Position numbers and translations under genes: made by a program. The notes beneath the pieces were generated by a model that did no database searches, had not been told where the DNA came from, and saw nothing but the letters and a program-made list of their open reading frames with translations. From Candidatus Acidiferrales bacterium (GTDB lineage Bacteria > Acidobacteriota > Terriglobia > Acidiferrales > UBA7541), in assembly GCA_035934015.1 (NCBI GenBank), contig DASYYH010000006.1, positions 186,001 through 250,000 of the forward strand: DNA of 64,000 bases, given 5' to 3'. Below, piece by piece: positions 27,562 to 38,865 of this stretch. Position 1 is the first letter of the stretch; each line of letters starts with the position of its first letter.

Positions 27562-27939
27562 GTGAAGGAAGTTATTTCCACGCAGCACGGCCCCAAGGCC
27601 ATCGGCCCCTATTCGCAAGCGATTCGCGCCAACGGTTTCATTTTTATTTCCGGTCAAGTTGCGTTTGATCCCGCGACCGGCCAGCTCATCGAAGGTGACG
27701 TCGCCGCGCAGACCGAGCGCGTCCTGCAAAATTTGAAGGGTATCGTCGAAGCCGCTGGCTCAATGCTCGATAAAACCGTGAAGACCACCGTGTTTCTCAA
27801 GGACATGAACGATTTTTCAAAAATGAACGAAGTCTATTCCCGGTTTTTCCCGGCGAATCCGCCTGCTCGCTCCACTGTCGAAGTCGCGCGCCTTCCTCGC
27901 GACGTTCGCGTGGAAATCGATCTCATTGCGCTCGCGTAA
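27562..27939 (+). CDS. ridA: RidA family enamine/imine deaminase
   Basis: A 125-residue RidA (YjgF/YER057c/UK114) protein, which hydrolyses reactive 2-aminoacrylate made by PLP enzymes. Typical segments are [22 protein letters not shown], the [11 protein letters not shown] helix and [19 protein letters not shown], with the catalytic Arg in RSTVEV. GTG 27562 is chosen because AGGAGG lies at 27552-27557. It stands immediately before biotin genes, two of which encode PLP enzymes, but no functional link is proven. Confidence 0.93.
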
Positions 27940-27955
27940 GAAGAAGGAATCCCGA

Positions 27956-28918
27956 ATGCAAATTCACCACAATTGGACGCGGGAAGAGATTCGCAAGATA
28001 TTCCGCCTGCCTCTGCCGGACCTGATTTTCCAGGCTCAGTCGATTCATCGCGAATTTCATCGATCTGAGGAAGTCCAGCTTTGCCGTTTGCTCTCGATTA
28101 AAACCGGCGCGTGCCCGGAAGACTGTGCCTATTGCTCCCAGAGCGCGCATTACAAAACGGGCGTCGCGCGCCAGAAATTGATGGATCCATGCGATGTTCT
28201 CGAATCCGCGCGCCGCGCCAAGGCCGATGGTGCCACGCGTTTCTGCATGGGCGCTGCCTGGCGCGATGTTCCCGAGGGGAAAGAATTCGACGCCGTCCTC
28301 GAAATGGTTCGCGGTGTTGCCGCACTCGATCTCGAGGTCTGCTGCACGCTCGGCATGCTTACGGAAAATCAAGCTGCGCAGCTCAAGCGAGCCGGCCTCA
28401 CCGCCTACAACCATAATCTTGACACCTCGCCTGAATTTTACGGCCACATCATCACCACGCGCATTTATGAAGATCGCCTGCGCACCATCGCGCACGTCCG
28501 TCAAGCGGGAATCACGGTTTGCTGCGGCGGAATTCTCGGAATCGGGGAATCCGAAGAGGATCGCATCGGCTTGCTGCATCAGCTTGCGAATCTTGATCCG
28601 CATCCCGAAAGCGTGCCCATCAACGTTCTCGCTCACGTCGAAGGCACTCCGCTCGCTCATGTGCCGGACCTCGATCCACTCGTTTTCGTCCGCACCATCG
28701 CCGCCGCGCGCATTCTCATGCCTGCTTCGCGTGTCCGACTTTCCGGCGGACGCCACACCCTGTCGCGCGAAGCTGTCGCTCTCTGTTTTCTCGCCGGCGC
28801 GAATTCCATTTTCACTGGCGAAAAGCTTCTGACCACGCCGAATCCGCCCGTCGATCAGGATCTGGCTCTCCTCGACGATCTCGGCATGCGGCCCATGCAA
28901 CGTGCCTCAAATGCTTAG
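27956..28918 (+). CDS. bioB: Biotin synthase BioB
   Basis: A 320-residue radical SAM enzyme that inserts sulfur into dethiobiotin. The 4Fe-4S motif CPEDCAYC is present (CxxxCxxC), followed by [10 protein letters not shown], and the NHNLDTSP-like block appears as [15 protein letters not shown] 27956 is preferred (AAGAAGGAAT upstream) over a TTG at 27926 that overlaps ridA. First gene of the bioB-F-D-A operon; its stop overlaps bioF by 8 bp. Confidence 0.96.
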
Positions 28919-30083
28919 CAAAGAAATCCGCAGCCGCATCTCCTCCGAACTCGAACATCTGCGCAAGGAATCGCAGTTCCGCACTCTCGAAATTCCGCGC
29001 GGCATCAATCTCTGCTCGAATGATTATCTTGCTCTTTCCGATGATCCTCGTTTGAAGTGTGCTGTCATCGAAGCCGTCTCCGCCGGCGAAAGCGTTGGTT
29101 CGACCGGCCCGCGTCTGCTCTCCGGCCATTCGCTCGAATGGGAAAAATTGGAATCTGATTTCGCTGCTTTCGCTGGCGCTGAGTCGGCGCTTTACTTCAA
29201 TTCGGGTTATGCCGCCAATGTTGGTTTGCTCAGTTCGGTCTTGCGGCCTGGCGACGTCGTTTTCTCCGATGCGCTCAACCATGCCAGCCTCATCGATGGC
29301 ATTCGTCTTTCCGGCGCTCGCAAAGTCATCTATCCACACTGCGATTTGAAATTTCTCGAGAATGCTTTGCGCGAAAATTCCGCCTCCGATGGCGTAAAAG
29401 TGATCGTCACCGAGAGCGTTTTCAGCATGGAAGGCGACGTCGCTCCTCTCGCCGGCCTGCTCCATCTCGCGAAAACTTACGGTGCGGAATTGATTCTCGA
29501 TGAAGCTCATGCCACTGGCGTCTGCGGCCCGCAAGGGCGCGGAATAGCGGTCGACTTGCACTGTGAACACGGAATCCTCGCCGTCGTCCACACGTGTGGC
29601 AAGGCCTTAGCCAGCCTCGGCGCATTTGTATGTTGCCATCTCGCGCTCAAGGATTTTCTCATTAATCGCGCGCGCACTTTCATTTTCAGCACCGCCGCGC
29701 CGCCGTACATGGCGCGCCAAATCAGCGCTGCGCTTTCCTTGGCAACCGCCGAAGATAACCGTCGCGCACATCTCCGCGAAGTCTCGGCCTTGCTGCGCGC
29801 CGGTCTCGCTGCCGCCGGTTTTTCCTGCGGCTCGAGCAGCACGCACATCATCCCCGTGATTCTCGGCTCCAATGAAAATGCTCTTCGCGTCGCCACGCAT
29901 TTGCAGGCGAGCGGCTTCGCTGTCAAAGCGATTCGTCCGCCGACCGTCCCGCCGGGCACTGCGCGCATTCGTTTTTCGCTCACCAGCCGCGTCACGCGCG
30001 AGGACGTCGATCGCCTGGTTCGCGCCATGCATTCTGCAAACCAACTGCCGCAGCACGCTTCTTCCATAGCCGCCAATGCCTAG
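28911..30083 (+). CDS. bioF: 8-amino-7-oxononanoate synthase BioF
   Basis: A 390-residue PLP enzyme that condenses pimeloyl thioester with L-alanine in biotin synthesis. Typical motifs are [23 protein letters not shown], the [15 protein letters not shown] block, and the PLP-Lys region [13 protein letters not shown] (family GTFGKALGxxGA). ATG 28911 overlaps the bioB end by 8 bp; a GTG at 28902 is also in frame. Its own stop overlaps bioD by 8 bp. All four biotin genes are thus closely coupled. Confidence 0.94.
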
Positions 30084-30711
30084 CCGCTTTTTCATCACTG
30101 GTACGGACACCGGCATTGGCAAGACAACGGTCTCCGCGCTTCTCTGTGCCGCGCTCGATGCCATCTATTGGAAGCCGATCCAAACCGGCTCACGCGAAGG
30201 CACCGATCGTGTCACCGTCATCCGTCTCGCTGCGCTTCCGCGCAATCGTTCTCTCCCGGAGGCGTATTGTTTCGCGCCGCCCGTGTCGCCACATCTCGCC
30301 GCGCGTCGTGCTGGAGTTCGCATCGAACTGCGCAAAATCAAATTGCCGCCGCTTCCTCCTCAGGAAAATTTAATCGCGGAAGGAGCCGGCGGCGCGCTCG
30401 TTCCGATCAATGACACGCAGTTGATGACCGATCTCATGCGCCATCTCAAGCTCCCGGCTCTTCTCGTCGCGCGAACTTCTCTCGGCACGATCAACCACAC
30501 TTTGCTTTCCATTGCCGCCTTGCGTGCCGCGCGCCTCGACCTTCGCGGCGTCATCATGGTTGGCCGTCCGAACCGCGAGAATCGCAGCGCCATCGAGCAT
30601 TACGGCAAAATCGAAGTCCTCGGCGCCATGCCATTCTTAAAAGAGCTGAATCGCGCTATTCTTTTGGACGTGTTTCGGCGTAATTTTGACCGCAAGGCCT
30701 TTGCCTCATGA
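30076..30711 (+). CDS. bioD: Dethiobiotin synthetase BioD
   Basis: A 211-residue ATP-dependent carboxylase closing the ureido ring of dethiobiotin. The P-loop FITGTDTGIGKTT is at about 6-18, with the substrate Lys in YWKPIQTG and the EGAGGALVPIN block. It is slightly short for the family (about 220-230) but has all main motifs. Overlaps bioF by 8 bp and bioA by 4 bp (ATGA). Confidence 0.94.
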   Translation: MPSRFFITGTDTGIGKTTVSALLCAALDAIYWKPIQTGSREGTDRVTVIRLAALPRNRSLPEAYCFAPPVSPHLAARRAGVRIELRKIKLPPLPPQENLIAEGAGGALVPINDTQLMTDLMRHLKLPALLVARTSLGTINHTLLSIAALRAARLDLRGVIMVGRPNRENRSAIEHYGKIEVLGAMPFLKELNRAILLDVFRRNFDRKAFAS

Positions 30712-32042
30712 CTTCGCCGCTGCGCATTTGGCATCCCTTCACGCAGGAGGCGCTCGATCCGCCGTCGCTGCGCATCACAAAAGCCGAGGGAGTTTATCTA
30801 TACACCGCCGATGGCCGGCGCTTCCTCGACGGCATCTCTTCATGGTGGGTCAATATTCACGGTCATTGCCATCCGGCCATTATGTCTGCCATCGCCGCGC
30901 AAACGGCCAAGCTCGACCACGTTCTACTCGCCGGCTTCACGCACGATGCCGTCGAAGATCTCACGCTTGCGCTTCGTGAAGTCTTGCCGCAGGGTCTCGC
31001 ACACATTTTTTTCTCTGACGATGGCTCAACCGCCGTCGAAGTCGCGCTCAAAATTGCCGTACAGTATTGGCAAAATCTCGGCCACCCCGAGAAGCATTCC
31101 ATCGTCGCCCTTGAGCATGCCTATCACGGCGATACCGCCGGCGCGATGTCCGTCAGCGACGATTCGCTTTTCACCGATCCTTTCCGCAGCCTGCGTTTTC
31201 CCGTGCATCGCGTGCATTCCGCTTATTGTTATCGTTGTCCCGTCGGCAAAACGCGCGCCACCTGCGACGTCGATTGCCTCACGCAGCTCGCGAACCTCCT
31301 CGAAGAAAAGCATCGCGAAATCGCAGCCGTCATCGTCGAGCCGCTTCTGCAGGGCGCTGGCGGCATGATCGTTCATCCCCAGGAATTCTTGCAGCGCGTG
31401 CGTCTGCTCTGCAGCGAGTTTGGAGTGCTGCTCATCGCCGACGAAGTTCTCACAGGCTTTGGCCGCTGCGGCAAAATGTTTGCCTGCGAACTTGCCGGCG
31501 TCGTTCCCGATCTCATGTGTCTCTCAAAGGGAATCACGGGCGGCGTTCTTCCGCTCGCGGCCACGGTTTGCACGGAGGAAATTCATCGCGCCTTTGTCAG
31601 TGACGATCGCGGCCGTACGTTTTATCACGGCCATTCCTATACGGGAAATTCCATCGCCGCCGCCGCTGCGGTCGCTAGCCTGAGAATTTTCCAGGACGAG
31701 CCGATCTTCGAGCGCATCAATGCCATCAACGGCATTCATCAGGATCGCCTCGCTGCCATTCAGAATCATCCTGCCGTCGGCGACGTTCGTTCCATTGGCA
31801 CAATCGCCGCGGTGGAATTGCGCGCCGATGATCCCGGCTATTCTTCGCGCCTTCGCCCCAAGCTCTATCAGTTTTTTCTGGACGCTGGCATTTTGCTTCG
31901 TCCTCTCGGCAACGTCATTTACATTCTCCCGCCGTACGTCATCACTTCCGTGGAACTCAACTTCATCCACGATCGCATCGCCCAATCCCTCGACCGCGCC
32001 GCCGAATGGTCCGTTCCGCCGCGAGCGCAAGCCGCACCGTAA
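30708..32042 (+). CDS. bioA: Adenosylmethionine-8-amino-7-oxononanoate aminotransferase BioA
   Basis: A 444-residue class III aminotransferase that converts KAPA to DAPA using SAM as amino donor. Motifs visible are IWHPFTQ at the N-terminus, the DGISSWWVNIHGH block, VALEHAYHGDT, IADEVLTGFGRCGKMF and the PLP-Lys in CLSKGITGGVLPLA. It ends the bioBFDA operon; no bioC or bioH is in the window. Confidence 0.95.
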   Translation: MTSPLRIWHPFTQEALDPPSLRITKAEGVYLYTADGRRFLDGISSWWVNIHGHCHPAIMSAIAAQTAKLDHVLLAGFTHDAVEDLTLALREVLPQGLAHIFFSDDGSTAVEVALKIAVQYWQNLGHPEKHSIVALEHAYHGDTAGAMSVSDDSLFTDPFRSLRFPVHRVHSAYCYRCPVGKTRATCDVDCLTQLANLLEEKHREIAAVIVEPLLQGAGGMIVHPQEFLQRVRLLCSEFGVLLIADEVLTGFGRCGKMFACELAGVVPDLMCLSKGITGGVLPLAATVCTEEIHRAFVSDDRGRTFYHGHSYTGNSIAAAAAVASLRIFQDEPIFERINAINGIHQDRLAAIQNHPAVGDVRSIGTIAAVELRADDPGYSSRLRPKLYQFFLDAGILLRPLGNVIYILPPYVITSVELNFIHDRIAQSLDRAAEWSVPPRAQAAP

Positions 32043-32242
32043 ACCTCGGCTCGCCTTAGGGCTGGGTACAATTGGCAGGCATTGGGATAAATTGGAATAA
32101 AGGCCTGGGTCGAAGCGTGAGCATTTGGATCGCCGCAGCAGATTATTTTCGCGTGCGTGGAAAATTCAGTTTACCGTGCAGGATTGGTGGGCCCTGGTTG
32201 ACGATCTTAGAACTTGCGCTCACCCAATTCAGGACTGGGAAT

Positions 32243-33385
32243 TCAATTTAGGCGCTTGATCGTCCCTGCACAGCTGGATGTTTGTGACTCCTTGTCCGAG
32301 GCCAAGAACCGGTACGGCTCCCAATCTTGTGTTCCAGAAAGCCTGCGAAACCCGTGGACCTCATACCCGAATTTGGATGAGCTCCCTTCGTCCACTTGGT
32401 CATGCTTATATTCGAAGCGCTCAATGTAAGCTTTTTCGCTGGGGTAGAAGTAGGACTTCTCGATTAGATGAACGATTTCGTCGGCCTTCATAGCGCGAAG
32501 TTCAGTAAGGGTTAGGTCTGAACCCCGCTGAAAGGCCCACTGCTCCATCTCCTCTTGCGTAGGTTTACGGTGCCCGGCGGCGGATGTCTCACTCACATCT
32601 TTAGCTCCGTGTAAAGCGGCGCTTCTCTGAAGGATAGTGAAAATCGTGGTGCGTACGAATAACCCGCTGTTCTCTTCCTCCCGAAGTCGTCTTGCGATTT
32701 CCGATGCGTCGAAATGCCCTGACAAAAGCTCTTGAACGCAGCCGTCAATAGCCGTCAGGTTTCGCCGCCAGCGATTAACATCCTCCTCCAATCGATCTGT
32801 CTTTGCCGCCCGGTGGTAAATCAGCCATCCGAAGTAGGCGGCCAAAAGCCAGCCGACCCACCGAAAGGACGTACCAAATGCGACGTAGAGCGCGATGACA
32901 CCTGCCGCTAAGTAAAGCAAGCTAATAAAACTGCGCACCAGAACCACAAGACCCGGTCTAAGGAGGCTGCCGAGTATCGGTCCTTCGGCATCGAATACGG
33001 GGTGGGCGAACGAGTACAACACTCCTTCCAAATCAACGGCAACTTCGAGCCAGTAATCCACTGTGCTTGCCGTCCTGGTCATCCATCTTTCGTTGAATTC
33101 ATTAAGCGCCATTTCGGAGAGGTCGTCCCGGAGCTGCCTGAGTGACCGAATTGTTTCTTCGCGGTCAAGTTTCGTGATGTGCCAAATGTCCTTGGACGCA
33201 CTTTTGACTTCCTCATCGACTGACAGGAGTTCGGAGAGAAACCTGTCCAGCGCCTCGCCCTGTTCAGGATCTTCCTCCTCGTCGCGCCACAGGCGGTAGC
33301 GTAGATTCCCTAAGTCCGCCTTTCTACTCAGAAGACGCTCGAGCTTCTCGTTCCTCGGCGGCCCCTTCACCATAACCCCTCCCAA
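32243..33385 (-). CDS. unrecognised two-TM membrane protein
   Basis: A 380-residue protein I do not recognise (ATG at 33385 or 33373). The N-terminal 125 residues are charged and helical, probably coiled-coil (RKADLGNL, EEVKSASKDIW, LRQLRDDLSEM). Two hydrophobic helices at about 145-165 and 172-192 follow, then a charged helical region and a C-terminal part with FGYEVHGFRRL. It frequently uses AGG/AGA, TTA and CTA codons, unlike its neighbours. It lies next to tRNA-Ile, between the biotin operon and housekeeping-type genes, with 200 bp and 290 bp empty flanks. Recent acquisition is possible. No function can be given. Confidence 0.65.
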   Translation of the reverse strand: MGGVMVKGPPRNEKLERLLSRKADLGNLRYRLWRDEEEDPEQGEALDRFLSELLSVDEEVKSASKDIWHITKLDREETIRSLRQLRDDLSEMALNEFNERWMTRTASTVDYWLEVAVDLEGVLYSFAHPVFDAEGPILGSLLRPGLVVLVRSFISLLYLAAGVIALYVAFGTSFRWVGWLLAAYFGWLIYHRAAKTDRLEEDVNRWRRNLTAIDGCVQELLSGHFDASEIARRLREEENSGLFVRTTIFTILQRSAALHGAKDVSETSAAGHRKPTQEEMEQWAFQRGSDLTLTELRAMKADEIVHLIEKSYFYPSEKAYIERFEYKHDQVDEGSSSKFGYEVHGFRRLSGTQDWEPYRFLASDKESQTSSCAGTIKRLN

Positions 33386-33675
33386 AGCGTGGCCAGTTTA
33401 GCGCTGATTCTACTCTAGTGCGCCCTCAGCAGGGTTGGTGATTTCACAACATAGACGCATGCGGGGCGTGACGCTCGAAGATAGGAGCTAGCCAAAGCAG
33501 AACACGGAAACACAGGCACGGTTTTCGTCGAAGGATGCCCTTCGCGTTCTGCGGCATGTCAGAATTCTCCGTATGGCTAACGCAAAAGCTGCCGGTTTAG
33601 ACGCTGCGAGGAATGCAGGTGTGAAACGACGTATGCTGTACCCGTTCGGTCATGCTAAAATTGCTCGCTCCCAAC

Positions 33676-35312: not shown

Positions 35313-36338
35313 TCAGGCGATTTCGAGCATGCGGTCAATGGCGCGGCGCGCGCGGTGGGCAATTTCCGGCGGGACACATATCTGCGGTTCAAGAATTTCC
35401 AGCGAACGCAAAATGCGATCGAGCGTAATCGTTTTCATGAATTCACAAACAGCTTCCGGATTCACTGGTCGAAACAGTTTTTCCGGAGCGGCTTTGCGCA
35501 GGCGATGCAGCATGCCTACTTCCGTGCCGATAGCGACTTCGTCCGCAGTGGATTCGGAGATGTGGCGCATCATGCCCTCGGTGGAAAGGAAAAACGTGCG
35601 CTCGCGTGGCAGCGTGCCATCCGCGACGCGGGCCATGCACGAACTGACGCATCCGCATTCCGGATGAATCAGCAGTTCGATGTCCGGATTTTCTTCCATC
35701 AAGGAAAGCACCTGCGCGGGACGAATCGTGCGGTGCACGTGGCAATATCCGGGATAGGCGATGATGTTTGCGCGGCCGGTTTCACGCGCAACGACCGTAG
35801 CAAGAAATTTGTCAGGAATAAAAAGAATGGAGCGATCGGCAGGAATCGCACGAACGACTTTCGCAGCGTTCGCCGATGTGCAGCAGTAGTCGCTTTCGGC
35901 TTTCACTTCAGCCGAAGTATTGACATATGCGACGACGACAGCGTCCGGATAGCGCTTCTTCCAGGCGCGAAGTTCGTCGGCGGAAATCGTCGCCGCGAGC
36001 GAGCAGCCGGCGCGCAAATCGGGCAGCAGGACCGTTTTCTCCGGACAAAGAATCGCAGCGGTCTCCGCCATGAAATGAACGCCGCAGAAAACGATCACGT
36101 CAGCGGGCGTTGCGGCAGCCTGCTGTGAAAGGCCCAGAGAATCGCCGACGTAATCGGCGATCTCCTGCACTTCGTCGCGCTGATAATTGTGGGCAAGGAT
36201 CACAGCATTGCGTTCTTCTTTCAGGCGCGCGATGCACTGCTGCTTGCAGAAAATTTCAGCGGGCGAATCGCCGATGGCCTCGACCGGCGGCACGGAATAT
36301 CGAGTGTCGAAAGAGATCAAATTGGCCGATTCGCTCAA
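35313..36338 (-). CDS. nadA: Quinolinate synthase NadA
   Basis: A 341-residue 4Fe-4S enzyme that condenses iminoaspartate with dihydroxyacetone phosphate to quinolinate. The cluster cysteines expected for the family sit at C85 (FCGVHFMAETA), C199 (PGYCHVH) and C298 (VCEFMKT). NYQRDEVQ and HPECGC are also visible. The start is TTG 36338, with GAGGTGA placed 7 bp upstream inside the nadC end. It is the second gene of nadC-nadA; nadB is absent from the window. Confidence 0.95.
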   Translation of the reverse strand: MSESANLISFDTRYSVPPVEAIGDSPAEIFCKQQCIARLKEERNAVILAHNYQRDEVQEIADYVGDSLGLSQQAAATPADVIVFCGVHFMAETAAILCPEKTVLLPDLRAGCSLAATISADELRAWKKRYPDAVVVAYVNTSAEVKAESDYCCTSANAAKVVRAIPADRSILFIPDKFLATVVARETGRANIIAYPGYCHVHRTIRPAQVLSLMEENPDIELLIHPECGCVSSCMARVADGTLPRERTFFLSTEGMMRHISESTADEVAIGTEVGMLHRLRKAAPEKLFRPVNPEAVCEFMKTITLDRILRSLEILEPQICVPPEIAHRARRAIDRMLEIA

Positions 36339-36345
36339 GGAAAAA

Positions 36346-37350
36346 TCACCTCGTCCCAGGGATAAGTGTCGCGCTCAGATCAAGTGCGCGCGCGGAATGC
36401 GTCAGCGCGCCGATGGAAATTGCGTCCACGCCCGCAGCAGCAAAGGCCGCTACAAACGCTTCGGAAACGTTGCCGCTCGCTTCGATGAGCACGGAATCAT
36501 AAAAGCCTGCGTCACGCAGCGCTGTAGCTGCACGGGCAGCATCGGCTGGCGAAAAATTATCGAGCATCAAAACGCATGGGCATGCCTGCGGCGATGCCGA
36601 TTGCAATGCAGAGAGCGCGCGCGCGACAGGAAGAGCTTCCTCGATGCTTGTGACTTCGACTTCAAAAAATGCTGTGTTTTTTCGGCGTTCCCAGGCACGG
36701 CTCAGAATGTCATGAAATGCTGCAGGAGAATTTCCGGACGCGAGGCGCAGGTGGTTCGTCTTGATCAAAATCGCATCGCTCAGGCTCAAGCGGTGCGTTC
36801 CACCGCCGCCATGATGGATGGCGCGCTTGTCGAGCAAACCGCAAGGCGTCTTGCGCGTGCCGATGACGTGAGCATTCGGCGAGGCATCGCGCGCAACCGC
36901 AACGAGCTTGTGCGTTGCCGTGGCGATGCCGCCCATACGCTGCATGAGATTTACGATCACGCGCTCGAGCGGCAGAAGTTCACGCGCGTTTCCGATAACG
37001 CGCAAGAGCACGTCGCCGCGAACGACGGCCGCGCCATCTTCGGCGACAGGAGTTGCATTTAGCCCGGCGTTTCCGTAAATCCACGCTGCCTCTTCGATGC
37101 CTGCGGCGATACCTGTTTCCTTGGCACGAATCTCGACGGTGCAGCCGGGTGCGTCAATTTCCATGGCATCAACGGTCAGGTCGCCGGCCGCGGAATCCTG
37201 GCGAAGGAGTTCGTCCGTAAAGGCGCGGAGAGCGCGCAGATATTCCGGATTCTCGAGCGTCAGAGAAGCGCCATGGTAAAACGCAGCGCGAATGTGATCT
37301 TCGCGGCTCATGCGATGCACATGTGCGGCAATTCCGACTTTTGGAGTCAT
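36346..37350 (-). CDS. nadC: Quinolinate phosphoribosyltransferase NadC (carboxylating)
   Basis: A 334-residue enzyme making nicotinate mononucleotide from quinolinate and PRPP. The core motif is GTRKTPCGLLDKRAIHHGGG followed by HRLSLSDAILIKTNH. Residues after MSREDHIRAAFYHG align to the family N-terminal domain; ATG 37350 or 37311 may start it. The frame stays open in phase for another 657 bp upstream (to 38007), but that stretch is the repeat leader, not protein. nadA begins 7 bp after the stop. Confidence 0.93.
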   Translation of the reverse strand: MTPKVGIAAHVHRMSREDHIRAAFYHGASLTLENPEYLRALRAFTDELLRQDSAAGDLTVDAMEIDAPGCTVEIRAKETGIAAGIEEAAWIYGNAGLNATPVAEDGAAVVRGDVLLRVIGNARELLPLERVIVNLMQRMGGIATATHKLVAVARDASPNAHVIGTRKTPCGLLDKRAIHHGGGGTHRLSLSDAILIKTNHLRLASGNSPAAFHDILSRAWERRKNTAFFEVEVTSIEEALPVARALSALQSASPQACPCVLMLDNFSPADAARAATALRDAGFYDSVLIEASGNVSEAFVAAFAAAGVDAISIGALTHSARALDLSATLIPGTR

Positions 37351-37642
37351 GGCAATTGGATTCTCTCGCGTGGCTGATGGTCGCGGCGCAATTTGAAGTG
37401 CACACGCCCTCTGCGGCTCACGCTGCCTGAGCGGCGAAACTCCATTTTCCTGTGGCGCGCGCAGAGAAGTCAACCTCGATTGAAGCACGGCGAGATTGCA
37501 GATTTCGCGCCGAGACGGACCGCCCGGCGAAGTCGCGAAAGACGCTTGTGCATATCGCTTCGAGCGGGATGCGAGTTTCCGAGAACGGACAGAAGGCGAG
37601 AAATTATGGCGAAAAAACTCGATTAGAATCGCCTTCGATTCC

Positions 37643-37662
37643 TTGTTTTGTGTGAGTTGCAT
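37643..37662 (-). repeat. copy 2 of a 20-bp block in the nadC leader
   Basis: On the minus strand ATGCAACTCACACAAAAC plus AA. It is identical, but for one base, to 37988-38007 and displaced from it by exactly 345 bp. The CTAATCG copies on either side (37688 and 37620) are also displaced by exactly 345 bp from 38033 and 37965. Confidence 0.75.
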
Positions 37663-37913
37663 GAAGTTCTTATTTCCCATAGAAACTCGATTAGGTTCTG
37701 GAGGCTGGACGGTTTGCGCAGAGGGCGCGCAAAAAGGAAGGGATGAAAACTTGTCCCGATTAGAAAAAGGCAAGTGATTGATTTTGCGAGTGGTTAGCGG
37801 AAACTCACTGAGCTTTGCTGTCCCGATTAGAAAATTGTGCTGACCGGTTCGGAGCGAACCTTGGGCTGCGAGCGGATCGGCCAGCGTCGCGCGGAACGAA
37901 GAGAGGCGCGGAT

Positions 37914-37971
37914 GGAGACGAGTCTCCCTAATCGCTGAATTTTTCCAAAAACCGCGAGAATCAGCGATTAG
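37914..37971 (-). other. double hairpin inside the nadC leader
   Basis: An 11-bp perfect inverted repeat (CTAATCGCTGA at 37928-37938, TCAGCGATTAG at 37961-37971) uses two oppositely oriented copies of the array motif as its stem. Directly beside it, GGAGAC-GA-GTCTCC at 37914-37927 forms a second 6-bp hairpin. This suggests that the leader RNA is structured. Confidence 0.6.
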
Positions 37972-37987
37972 AACGACCTCCCGTTGT

Positions 37988-38007
37988 TTGTTTTGTGTTA
38001 GTTGCAT
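37988..38007 (-). repeat. copy 1 of a 20-bp block in the nadC leader
   Basis: On the minus strand ATGCAACTAACACAAAAC plus AA. It pairs with 37643-37662 (one mismatch). Confidence 0.75.
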
Positions 38008-38055
38008 CGAGTTTTAATTCTTCATATATTTGCGATTAGAATCCCTCCGAGCGCA

Positions 38056-38085
38056 TAAAAAGCGAAAGGCCGCGTCGCCGCGGCC
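38056..38085 (-). terminator. intrinsic terminator/attenuator in the nadCA leader
   Basis: Read on the minus strand: a 7-bp all-GC stem GGCCGCG/CGCGGCC (38068-38074 with 38079-38085, loop GCGA), followed by TTTCGCTTTTT. No gene ends here on this strand, so it lies between the promoter at 38144-38172 and nadC. It would end an approximately 80-nt transcript unless antiterminated. Confidence 0.7.
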
Positions 38086-38117
38086 CACCTTGTCTCCTTA
38101 GTCCCGAATTCTCCACA

Positions 38118-38133
38118 AGCCGCATTTGCGGCT
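38118..38133 (-). other. hairpin near the 5' end of the nadCA leader
   Basis: AGCCGC-AAAT-GCGGCT on the minus strand gives a perfect 6-bp stem with a 4-nt loop, only a few nt downstream of the predicted transcription start. Confidence 0.6.
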
Positions 38134-38138
38134 CACGG

Positions 38139-38172
38139 CTACATACTTATCATGTAGTAATGTGGTTGTCAA
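38139..38172 (-). promoter_or_regulatory. promoter with inverted-repeat operator for the nadCA leader
   Basis: On the minus strand a perfect TTGACA (38172-38167) is followed after 17 bp by TAAGTA (38149-38144), a weak -10. The half-sites CTACAT and ATGTAG, 7 bp apart (plus 38139-38144 and 38152-38157), straddle that -10. The TACA/TGTA character recalls BlaI/MecI-type operators. No such regulator gene is in the window. Confidence 0.5.
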
Positions 38173-38496
38173 GGAAAGAATCAAAGAAAAGCAGAAGAGA
38201 CGCAGAAGCGCCGGACGGGATAATCCAGAAATGGAGGTGGATCATTGGCCGCGTGGCGGCTGGCACATTCAAAATTTTGACACGCCGGCGAGAGGGGCGC
38301 GCAGAGATGCGAAGACAGGGCCTTCGCGCTCTAAACGCGCGCCAGAGGAAGAGAATTCACGTTACGGCACTGAGGCGTAAGAGCTTCCGTTCGATGGCTT
38401 CGACGTAAGCTTTCGCAAACAGGCCGCGTGCGCGAATAAGAGCGCTATAATCGCGCCGGCCGGTCGACTCTGACGCTGTATGGACCATAGCGAGGC
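38173..38496. other. non-coding stretch between the nadCA promoter and the VOC gene
   Basis: About 320 bp holding short open frames with no ribosome-binding site or recognisable protein. TATAAT at 38446-38451, 45 bp before the VOC gene, is a plausible -10 for it, though without a visible -35. Nothing else can be supported. Confidence 0.5.
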
Positions 38497-38865
38497 ATGA
38501 TGAAGTATCACCACCTGGGAATCCCGACTGAGGTCGCACAGACAGGTGAGATTTACCTGTCCCGCTACAAGCTGTACTGCACAGACCACCAACGCAATCC
38601 GTTCGGTATCCAATGGATGCGATACGAGAGCGATTGCCCATTGCCGGAGCTGGTAAAGACCAAAGCGCATGTTGCCTTCGAGGTCGATGACCTCACCGAG
38701 GCGCTGAAGGGCCACGAAATCCTGATCGAACCCAACAGCCCCTCCGAAGGGATTCTGGTGGCTTTCGTGGTGTGCGATGGTGCACCCATCGAGTTCATCC
38801 AGTATCTGGACCGAGGCGTCAGGACTGATCGGAGCGGCGGAACAACTCCCGTACCACAAGAATAG
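38497..38865 (+). CDS. VOC superfamily (glyoxalase/bleomycin-resistance fold) protein
   Basis: A 122-residue single-module VOC protein. It opens with the typical MKYHHLGIPT strand carrying the metal-binding-like His, has HVAFEVDDLTEAL in the middle, and ends with GAPIEFIQYLD where the family has a metal-binding Glu (E near 113). The start is ATG 38497 or 38500. The enzyme activity and substrate are unknown. Confidence 0.75.
   Translation: MMKYHHLGIPTEVAQTGEIYLSRYKLYCTDHQRNPFGIQWMRYESDCPLPELVKTKAHVAFEVDDLTEALKGHEILIEPNSPSEGILVAFVVCDGAPIEFIQYLDRGVRTDRSGGTTPVPQE

Follow-up and report, generated by a model that had tools for sequence, protein, structure and literature searches.

Upstream of the nadC and nadA genes of a Candidatus Acidiferrales bacterium lies a compact arrangement of promoter, hairpin and intrinsic terminator. 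Its position raises the question of whether it controls the nad operon in response to NAD, as the initial annotation proposed, or whether it is an element in its own right that happens to stand before nadC. We analysed the window (the whole 64,000-nt stretch of DNA containing the locus), together with related sequences from the same genome and from other genomes of the order.

The promoter-hairpin-terminator unit and its copies

The unit upstream of nadC, termed module A, consists of the following parts.

38172-38144, minus strand: module A promoter TTGACA-N17-TAAGTA, with the -35 TTGACA at 38172-38167, a 17-nt spacer and the -10 TAAGTA at 38149-38144 (sequence, and conservation across 65 copies)
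38173-38179, minus strand: T-rich stretch ahead of the promoter
38139-38157, minus strand: operator-like inverted repeat CTACAT (38157-38152)-N7-ATGTAG (38144-38139), lying over the -10 (sequence)
38114-38137, minus strand: 5' hairpin CGTGAGCCGC-AAAT-GCGGCTTGTG, at the predicted transcript start (fold and covariation)
38087-38113, minus strand: purine-rich single-stranded linker AAGGAGACAAGG, whose length differs from copy to copy (sequence comparison)
38056-38086, minus strand: intrinsic terminator GGGCCGCG-GCGA-CGCGGCCT followed by TTTCGCTTTTT (fold, terminator scan and covariation)

The promoter, inverted repeat, hairpin and terminator had all been placed correctly, in coordinates and strand, by the initial annotation. 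The 5' hairpin had been described as 6 bp long; it is present, but folding of 38137-38114 gave 10-11 bp once G-U pairs were counted. The terminator stem (38086-38067) has 8 pairs and a GCGA tetraloop, and TTTCGCTTTTT follows at 38066-38056. Read from 38172 to 38056 on the minus strand, the sequence comprises an extended promoter, a 5' hairpin and a terminator, and would give an RNA of about 80 nt. Taken singly, the unit at nadC was only moderately unusual, with a fold z of -2.7 and 2 of 200 shuffles equally good. About 3 terminator-like sites per 2 kb were expected by chance in a generic scan, and the module A promoter at nadC was absent from the list of a generic promoter scan. The doubt raised by these modest single-sequence scores was removed by the conservation of the arrangement across copies.

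Searching the own genome with the 1-kb region turned up 28 matching places. A covariance model of module A (R1), built from 9 own-genome copies, identified 17 copies in this genome and 2, 11, 19 and 18 copies in the other four congeneric species, so that module A was present in 5/5 sampled species with 2-19 copies each. The promoter-hairpin-terminator arrangement was found at 65 places in the five species, with a recognisable -35/-10 pair. Across these 65 copies conservation set in sharply 7 nt before the -35, with none further upstream, and the conserved promoter parts were the -35, a TG extended -10 and TAnAnA. The CTACAT/ATGTAG repeat over the -10, although present at nadC as had been noted, is no family feature; its conservation, as ACTACATGATAAGTATGTA, was limited to 6 copies that form a sub-family (the window, L011, L012, L099, L102 and L103). 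One additional module A copy, L142, was missed by R1.

Covariation was scored in 62 copies on an alignment fitted to the structure, so the following figures lean upward. Standard pairs occupied 94% of pair cells, and 156 cells carried two-sided compensatory changes, compared with 46 +/- 7 in shuffles, none of the 500 shuffles being as high. When the partner was slid by 1-3 columns, the compensatory signal collapsed to 14-26 cells. Changes on both sides were observed for 10 of the 10 pairs of the 5' hairpin and for 5 of the 7 pairs of the terminator. With 99.5% of its cells paired, the terminator was conserved best of all parts, in agreement with the expectation that it would be conserved in relatives. 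The mean z in alignment-free folding of the 65 copies was -1.74 (5' part) and -2.98 (whole RNA), in agreement with the covariation result. The structure of module A is under selection. The prediction of a self-contained unit that would give an RNA of about 80 nt is supported.

From these comparisons, module A is a putative two-hairpin RNA family that was previously undescribed: neither in the literature on Acidiferrales nor under general terms was such an element described. A phage or plasmid origin was rejected, as neither collection contained a DNA match. Reading the unit as a peptide (ATG CCA GGC..., running into the terminator) was rejected, as an extra T breaks the frame in other copies. 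Module A was not found by R1 in other genera, g3 and g8 among them, a weak form of evidence for its absence there since the model was built on a single genus.

Module B and the companion gene

Module A is followed by a second conserved sequence, module B, usually about 10 nt past the U-run. Its layout is TTCTAATCG (box1), 14-16 nt, ATTAGAA, AACTnACACAAAACAAA, and a second TTCTAATCG (box2) 67-69 nt after the first. The boxes stood after module A in all but a few of the 65 copies, often at 8-11 nt, which shows that modules A and B are joined. In the window the following features were identified between module A and nadC.

37965-38041, minus strand: module B unit 1, with box1 TTCTAATCG at 38041-38033, a half-antibox ATTAAAA at 38018-38012, an A-rich CAACTnACACAAAACAAAC and box2 TTCTAATCG at 37973-37965 (sequence; R2 copies)
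37928-37938, plus strand: inverted box pairing with box2 of unit 1, forming an 11-bp perfect inverted repeat with 37961-37971 (repeat search)
37757-37832, minus strand: module B unit 2, of the CTAATCGGGACA type, 89% identical to G000:C26:164991-165072
37620-37696, minus strand: module B unit 3, of the CTAATCGAGTTT type (repeat search; R2 match at G000:C6:223612-223696)

A sequence model of module B (R2) detected about 50 copies in the own genome. Within the family, B occurred only in genera g1, g3 and g8, in 25 of 89 genomes, with copies counted up to a limit of 49 per genome. In 116 distinct elements, box1 and box2 agreed at the five bases after CTAATCG with frequencies of 0.87, 0.89, 0.78, 0.70 and 0.64, respectively, whereas the shuffled control gave 0.26-0.41. 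Because this agreement within an element lies far beyond the shuffles, the two boxes are element-specific copies of one site. It is compatible with two candidate binding sites of one protein, and homogenisation or duplication at insertion would fit it equally well.

Other accounts of module B were rejected. A conserved peptide (MQLTQNK..., ...SNR) was excluded in general because conservation is at the nucleotide level, the 68-nt spacing breaking one frame and the starts not being kept; gene-bearing copies nonetheless read into B. No tandem repeat was reported by TRF, and a CRISPR-like array was rejected on the ground that the interior between the boxes is conserved and not variable. In L009, L015, L093, L096 and L103, the U-run region separating A from B contains insertions of other short repeats of the GCGCCGTAGCCGCAYTCTGGCGAAGG type. 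In L143, L144, L025 and L026, a second kind of promoter-leader, with a TTAAC-like promoter spacer and later GGTGGAGTYTCCTCTCCGCCTAGCCCTCCCGA, replaced module A about 150 nt upstream of B.

A gene for a protein of 196-450 aa was found after the A copies L181, L182, L184 and L189, and the core of the protein is RHxRKCxxC...W...YRHAxxxGL...RRxN. In L181, L182 and L184 the order is A, protein gene and B boxes near the 3' end of the gene, and in L189/L113 module A precedes the protein gene. Many gene copies end in frame inside module B, as they also do in genera g3 and g8 (...VTPTKQ...SNR), and B forms the 3' end of the companion gene in g1, g3 and g8. Each of the 5 species of the genus carries it; among 34 genomes outside the genus, it was confined to g3, g8 and g12 and to a single genome from another family, all other genera being without it. 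B was detected by R2 in g3 and g8 and not in g12. The gene and B largely co-occur across genera. Six protein-gene copies of G015, a member of g12 (L231, L235, L240, L244, L245 and L247), lack module B and have a different C-terminus (GIPWPW...).

All eight relatives of the protein in named collections were from metagenome-assembled genomes of Candidatus Acidiferrales or Acidobacteria, and one distant relative of the core was found in IMG/VR. There was no sequence match in Pfam, NCBIfam or PDB, and the best PHROG match had an E of 0.05. The AlphaFold model of the core was helical, with block pLDDT values mostly of 84-95 over the first 80 residues. Fold searches of the core returned Foldseek E values of 3 or higher and VIA Z scores of about 3-4, at most 3.9 (FapR HTH, Sf6 small terminase and DegU). 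The modelled protein is HTH-like at best, and the matches are too weak for a fold name to be assigned.

Between promoter and gene, L181, L184, L190, L192 and L197 contain a leader in which hairpins and a U-run terminator occur, in unrelated sequences. The gene copies L188, L191 and L193 have no U-run terminator, and still other gene copies have unrelated leaders. Since R1 matched nothing in g3 and g8, the order A-gene-B is restricted to this genus and, there, to some gene copies.

We propose, with moderate confidence, that the order Ca. Acidiferrales harbours a dispersed element family to which the unit upstream of nadC belongs, and that this copy is the gene-less form of an A-gene-B element, combining an RNA gene with candidate protein-binding boxes. 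RNA polymerase would start at the conserved module A promoter, and the resulting RNA of about 80 nt would fold into the 5' hairpin and stop at the built-in terminator. Downstream, module B is a half-site cluster composed of box1, an inverted half-box and box2. In gene-bearing copies the terminator of A would restrict expression of the gene to read-through, and the Cys/helix-turn-helix-like protein would bind the B boxes. Copies of the nadC type have no gene but retain the RNA unit and the boxes, so that they look like gene-less relatives of the A-gene-B element, from which they presumably derive. The dispersal of the copies suggests that the element moves as a unit.

Type III toxin-antitoxin systems of the ToxIN type consist of a promoter, a small RNA, an intrinsic terminator and a protein gene, with read-through setting the protein level. 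The gene-bearing copies share this order of promoter, small RNA, terminator and protein gene; in contrast to ToxIN, they have no tandem RNA repeats, most copies of the element have no gene, and the protein, which has no family match and gave weak HTH-like fold matches, may be a small HTH protein and not a ToxN nuclease. REP/REPIN sequences with their RAYTs (PMC3116915) are likewise short, dispersed, box-ended repeats present in tens of copies and accompanied by a low-copy gene that has the repeat on its flanks, and the companion gene here does adjoin B, the genome-dispersed repeat. However, the companion protein has no match to Y1/HUH transposases (no Pfam match) and conserves the residues RHxRKCxxC...YRHA...GL, the boxes are mainly direct and not inverted, and a promoter-hairpin-terminator RNA unit is attached. 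As with MITEs (e.g., MITEAba12, PMC6382973), gene-less copies appear related to a longer gene-bearing element. Unlike in MITEs, terminal inverted repeats are absent, and conservation begins at the promoter as the left edge and fades after box2. No target-site duplication was found at the sites compared, among which there was no clean empty site.

Genomic setting and alternative explanations

The foremost alternative to a gene-less A-gene-B element, which we nevertheless consider doubtful, is that the module A copies are small RNA genes that act in trans and have their own function, through base pairing or protein binding; B would then be a regulatory site attached to them, and their connection with the protein gene would be secondary. 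All the parts of an intrinsic-terminator small RNA gene, i.e., an own promoter, a structured RNA and a U-run terminator, are present here, the covariation is strong, up to four species retain copies at the same gene, and a purine-rich, SD-like linker is present in many copies. Against such a role, no conserved single-stranded seed was seen, and hairpin and linker have diverged even between orthologous A copies (mean identity of 60%, compared with 80% for the terminator). The linker has almost vanished in L028, L130 and L137, and the tight coupling to B would be left unexplained. In orthologous units, promoter and 5' hairpin often differ, and terminator and module B are more alike.

The arrangement of neighbouring genes bears on a further explanation, by which A-B would act in cis as a regulatory leader (attenuator) for the downstream gene, the same device having been recruited by different genes. 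By simple ORF calls, the next downstream gene was co-directional in 47 of 63 copies, in favour of a leader, and convergent in the other 16, which speaks against one. Several A-B units stand beside the same gene in 2-4 species, which fits both a kept regulatory role and an old insertion. When A-B units at orthologous places in G000 and G003 were compared, the downstream side proved collinear at near-equal distance and the upstream side variable, which also favours a leader. However, conserved promoters lie between B and the start codon of nadC, of a ggt-like gene (TTGACG-N17-TAGATT/TAAATT, 38-39 nt before the ATG, kept in three species) and of an HACD gene (conserved in two species), and an antiterminator pairing was not established. 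We therefore regard a cis-acting leader as unlikely.

Still more speculative, and distinctly improbable in our judgement, is the idea that A-B units serve a cassette system as fixed docking or boundary sites, where cargo would be swapped just upstream of A, the RNA unit and boxes would act as a recombination landmark and the Cys/HTH protein would be the recognition factor. Its basis is that, in two species, A is separated from the conserved gene upstream by non-homologous DNA of 0.1 to 6.3 kb. In G000 and G003, respectively, the gene-to-A lengths were 1394 vs 5279, 115 vs 1368, 140 vs 1177, 1611 vs 2758, 454 vs 1403, 3642 vs 1701 and 6275 vs 2323 nt. The DNA in this slot was mixed and included, with names assigned by eye, hypothetical genes, a VOC-like gene, an IS110-like and a Y1-like transposase and a DUF433/PIN-like pair. 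At the nadC locus, part of the near upstream side is collinear. Indels of kilobase size are present in other places too, about 5.6 kb of the window (27939-33651) being missing from the collinear G003 contig, so that the enrichment of length turnover upstream of A is suggestive and not proven. Empty-site searches with two B-only loci gave no clean junction, and neither a target-site duplication of the unit nor a clean empty site was obtained. A small VOC/glyoxalase-like gene (38497-38865) is located just upstream of module A in the window, and a relative stands upstream of another A copy in G003 (locus L270).

A selfish or decaying repeat without function for the cell has a low probability. The family is dispersed, multi-copy and lineage-restricted, and L009, L015 and L093 are interrupted by another repeat. 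On the other side stand the compensatory changes in every pair of the 5' hairpin and the retention of promoter and terminator at orthologous sites despite unalignable upstream flanks, which show selection on the unit, though possibly for the element's own spread.

The nadC promoter and NAD control

For the nadC locus itself, the coding context and promoter are as follows.

36346-37350, minus strand: nadC (ORF and translation; context, outside the element)
35313-36338, minus strand: nadA (ORF; context)
37444-37473, minus strand: own promoter of nadC, TTGACT-N18-GAAAAT (generic scan and five-species alignment)

The start of nadC is likely at 37350. A 553-aa ORF (36346-38007, minus strand; MQLTQNK...) that runs through the B array into nadC was rejected as an open-frame artefact. 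Some 95 nt separate the nadC promoter from the ATG, and modules A and B are both located upstream of this promoter; the form that it shares among five species is TTGACTTC...GGCAC(A)GGAAAATGG. A unit stands before nadC at the orthologous place in G003; in G001, G002 and G004 neither module A nor B is present at nadC, and the proximal promoter is kept. Since a separate nadC promoter is kept in all five species, including the three without the unit, the unit at nadC, judging from the alignment, is not the nadC leader, and the placement of this unit in a nadCA leader has to be given up. A role as nadC attenuator is not supported either: unrelated genes, in some cases convergent ones, follow other copies.

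The nadA motif (NAD+-I) consists of tandem bulged stem-loops with a ACANCCCC bulge (PMC7297122). The unit resembles it in standing upstream of a nad operon in an acidobacterium, but differs in having no covariance-model match and no ACANCCCC bulge, and in lying outside the nadC transcript as judged from the promoters. No Rfam family was found at the gathering threshold on the window, and none at E<=5 on 11 loci, among them L001, in which this region lies; the nadA motif, Acido-1 and Acido-Lenti-1 models, named beforehand as a check, were thus without a match in both sets. On the coding strand from the unit to nadC, ACANCCCC and CCCC were both absent. A location in the 5'-UTR, as for NAD+-I, was not found either, the nadC promoter being downstream of the unit and other copies being followed by unrelated genes. 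An NAD-responsive riboswitch or attenuator specific to nadCA, for which nothing speaks except the position upstream of nadC here and in G003, is accordingly very improbable.

A promoter and terminator before nadC are naturally misread as an NAD attenuator. Correcting this reading replaces it with a new putative RNA and repeat family in a little-studied soil lineage, in which a two-hairpin RNA, its covariation very strong, is coupled both with a dispersed box repeat and with a protein family that tracks the repeat across genera. Both the pairing of protein and boxes and the ends of the RNA are directly testable with cloned DNA. In the relatives, the spacer of the nadC promoter contains a partial GTGCC/GGCAC-like palindrome, which is a candidate operator of an NAD regulator.
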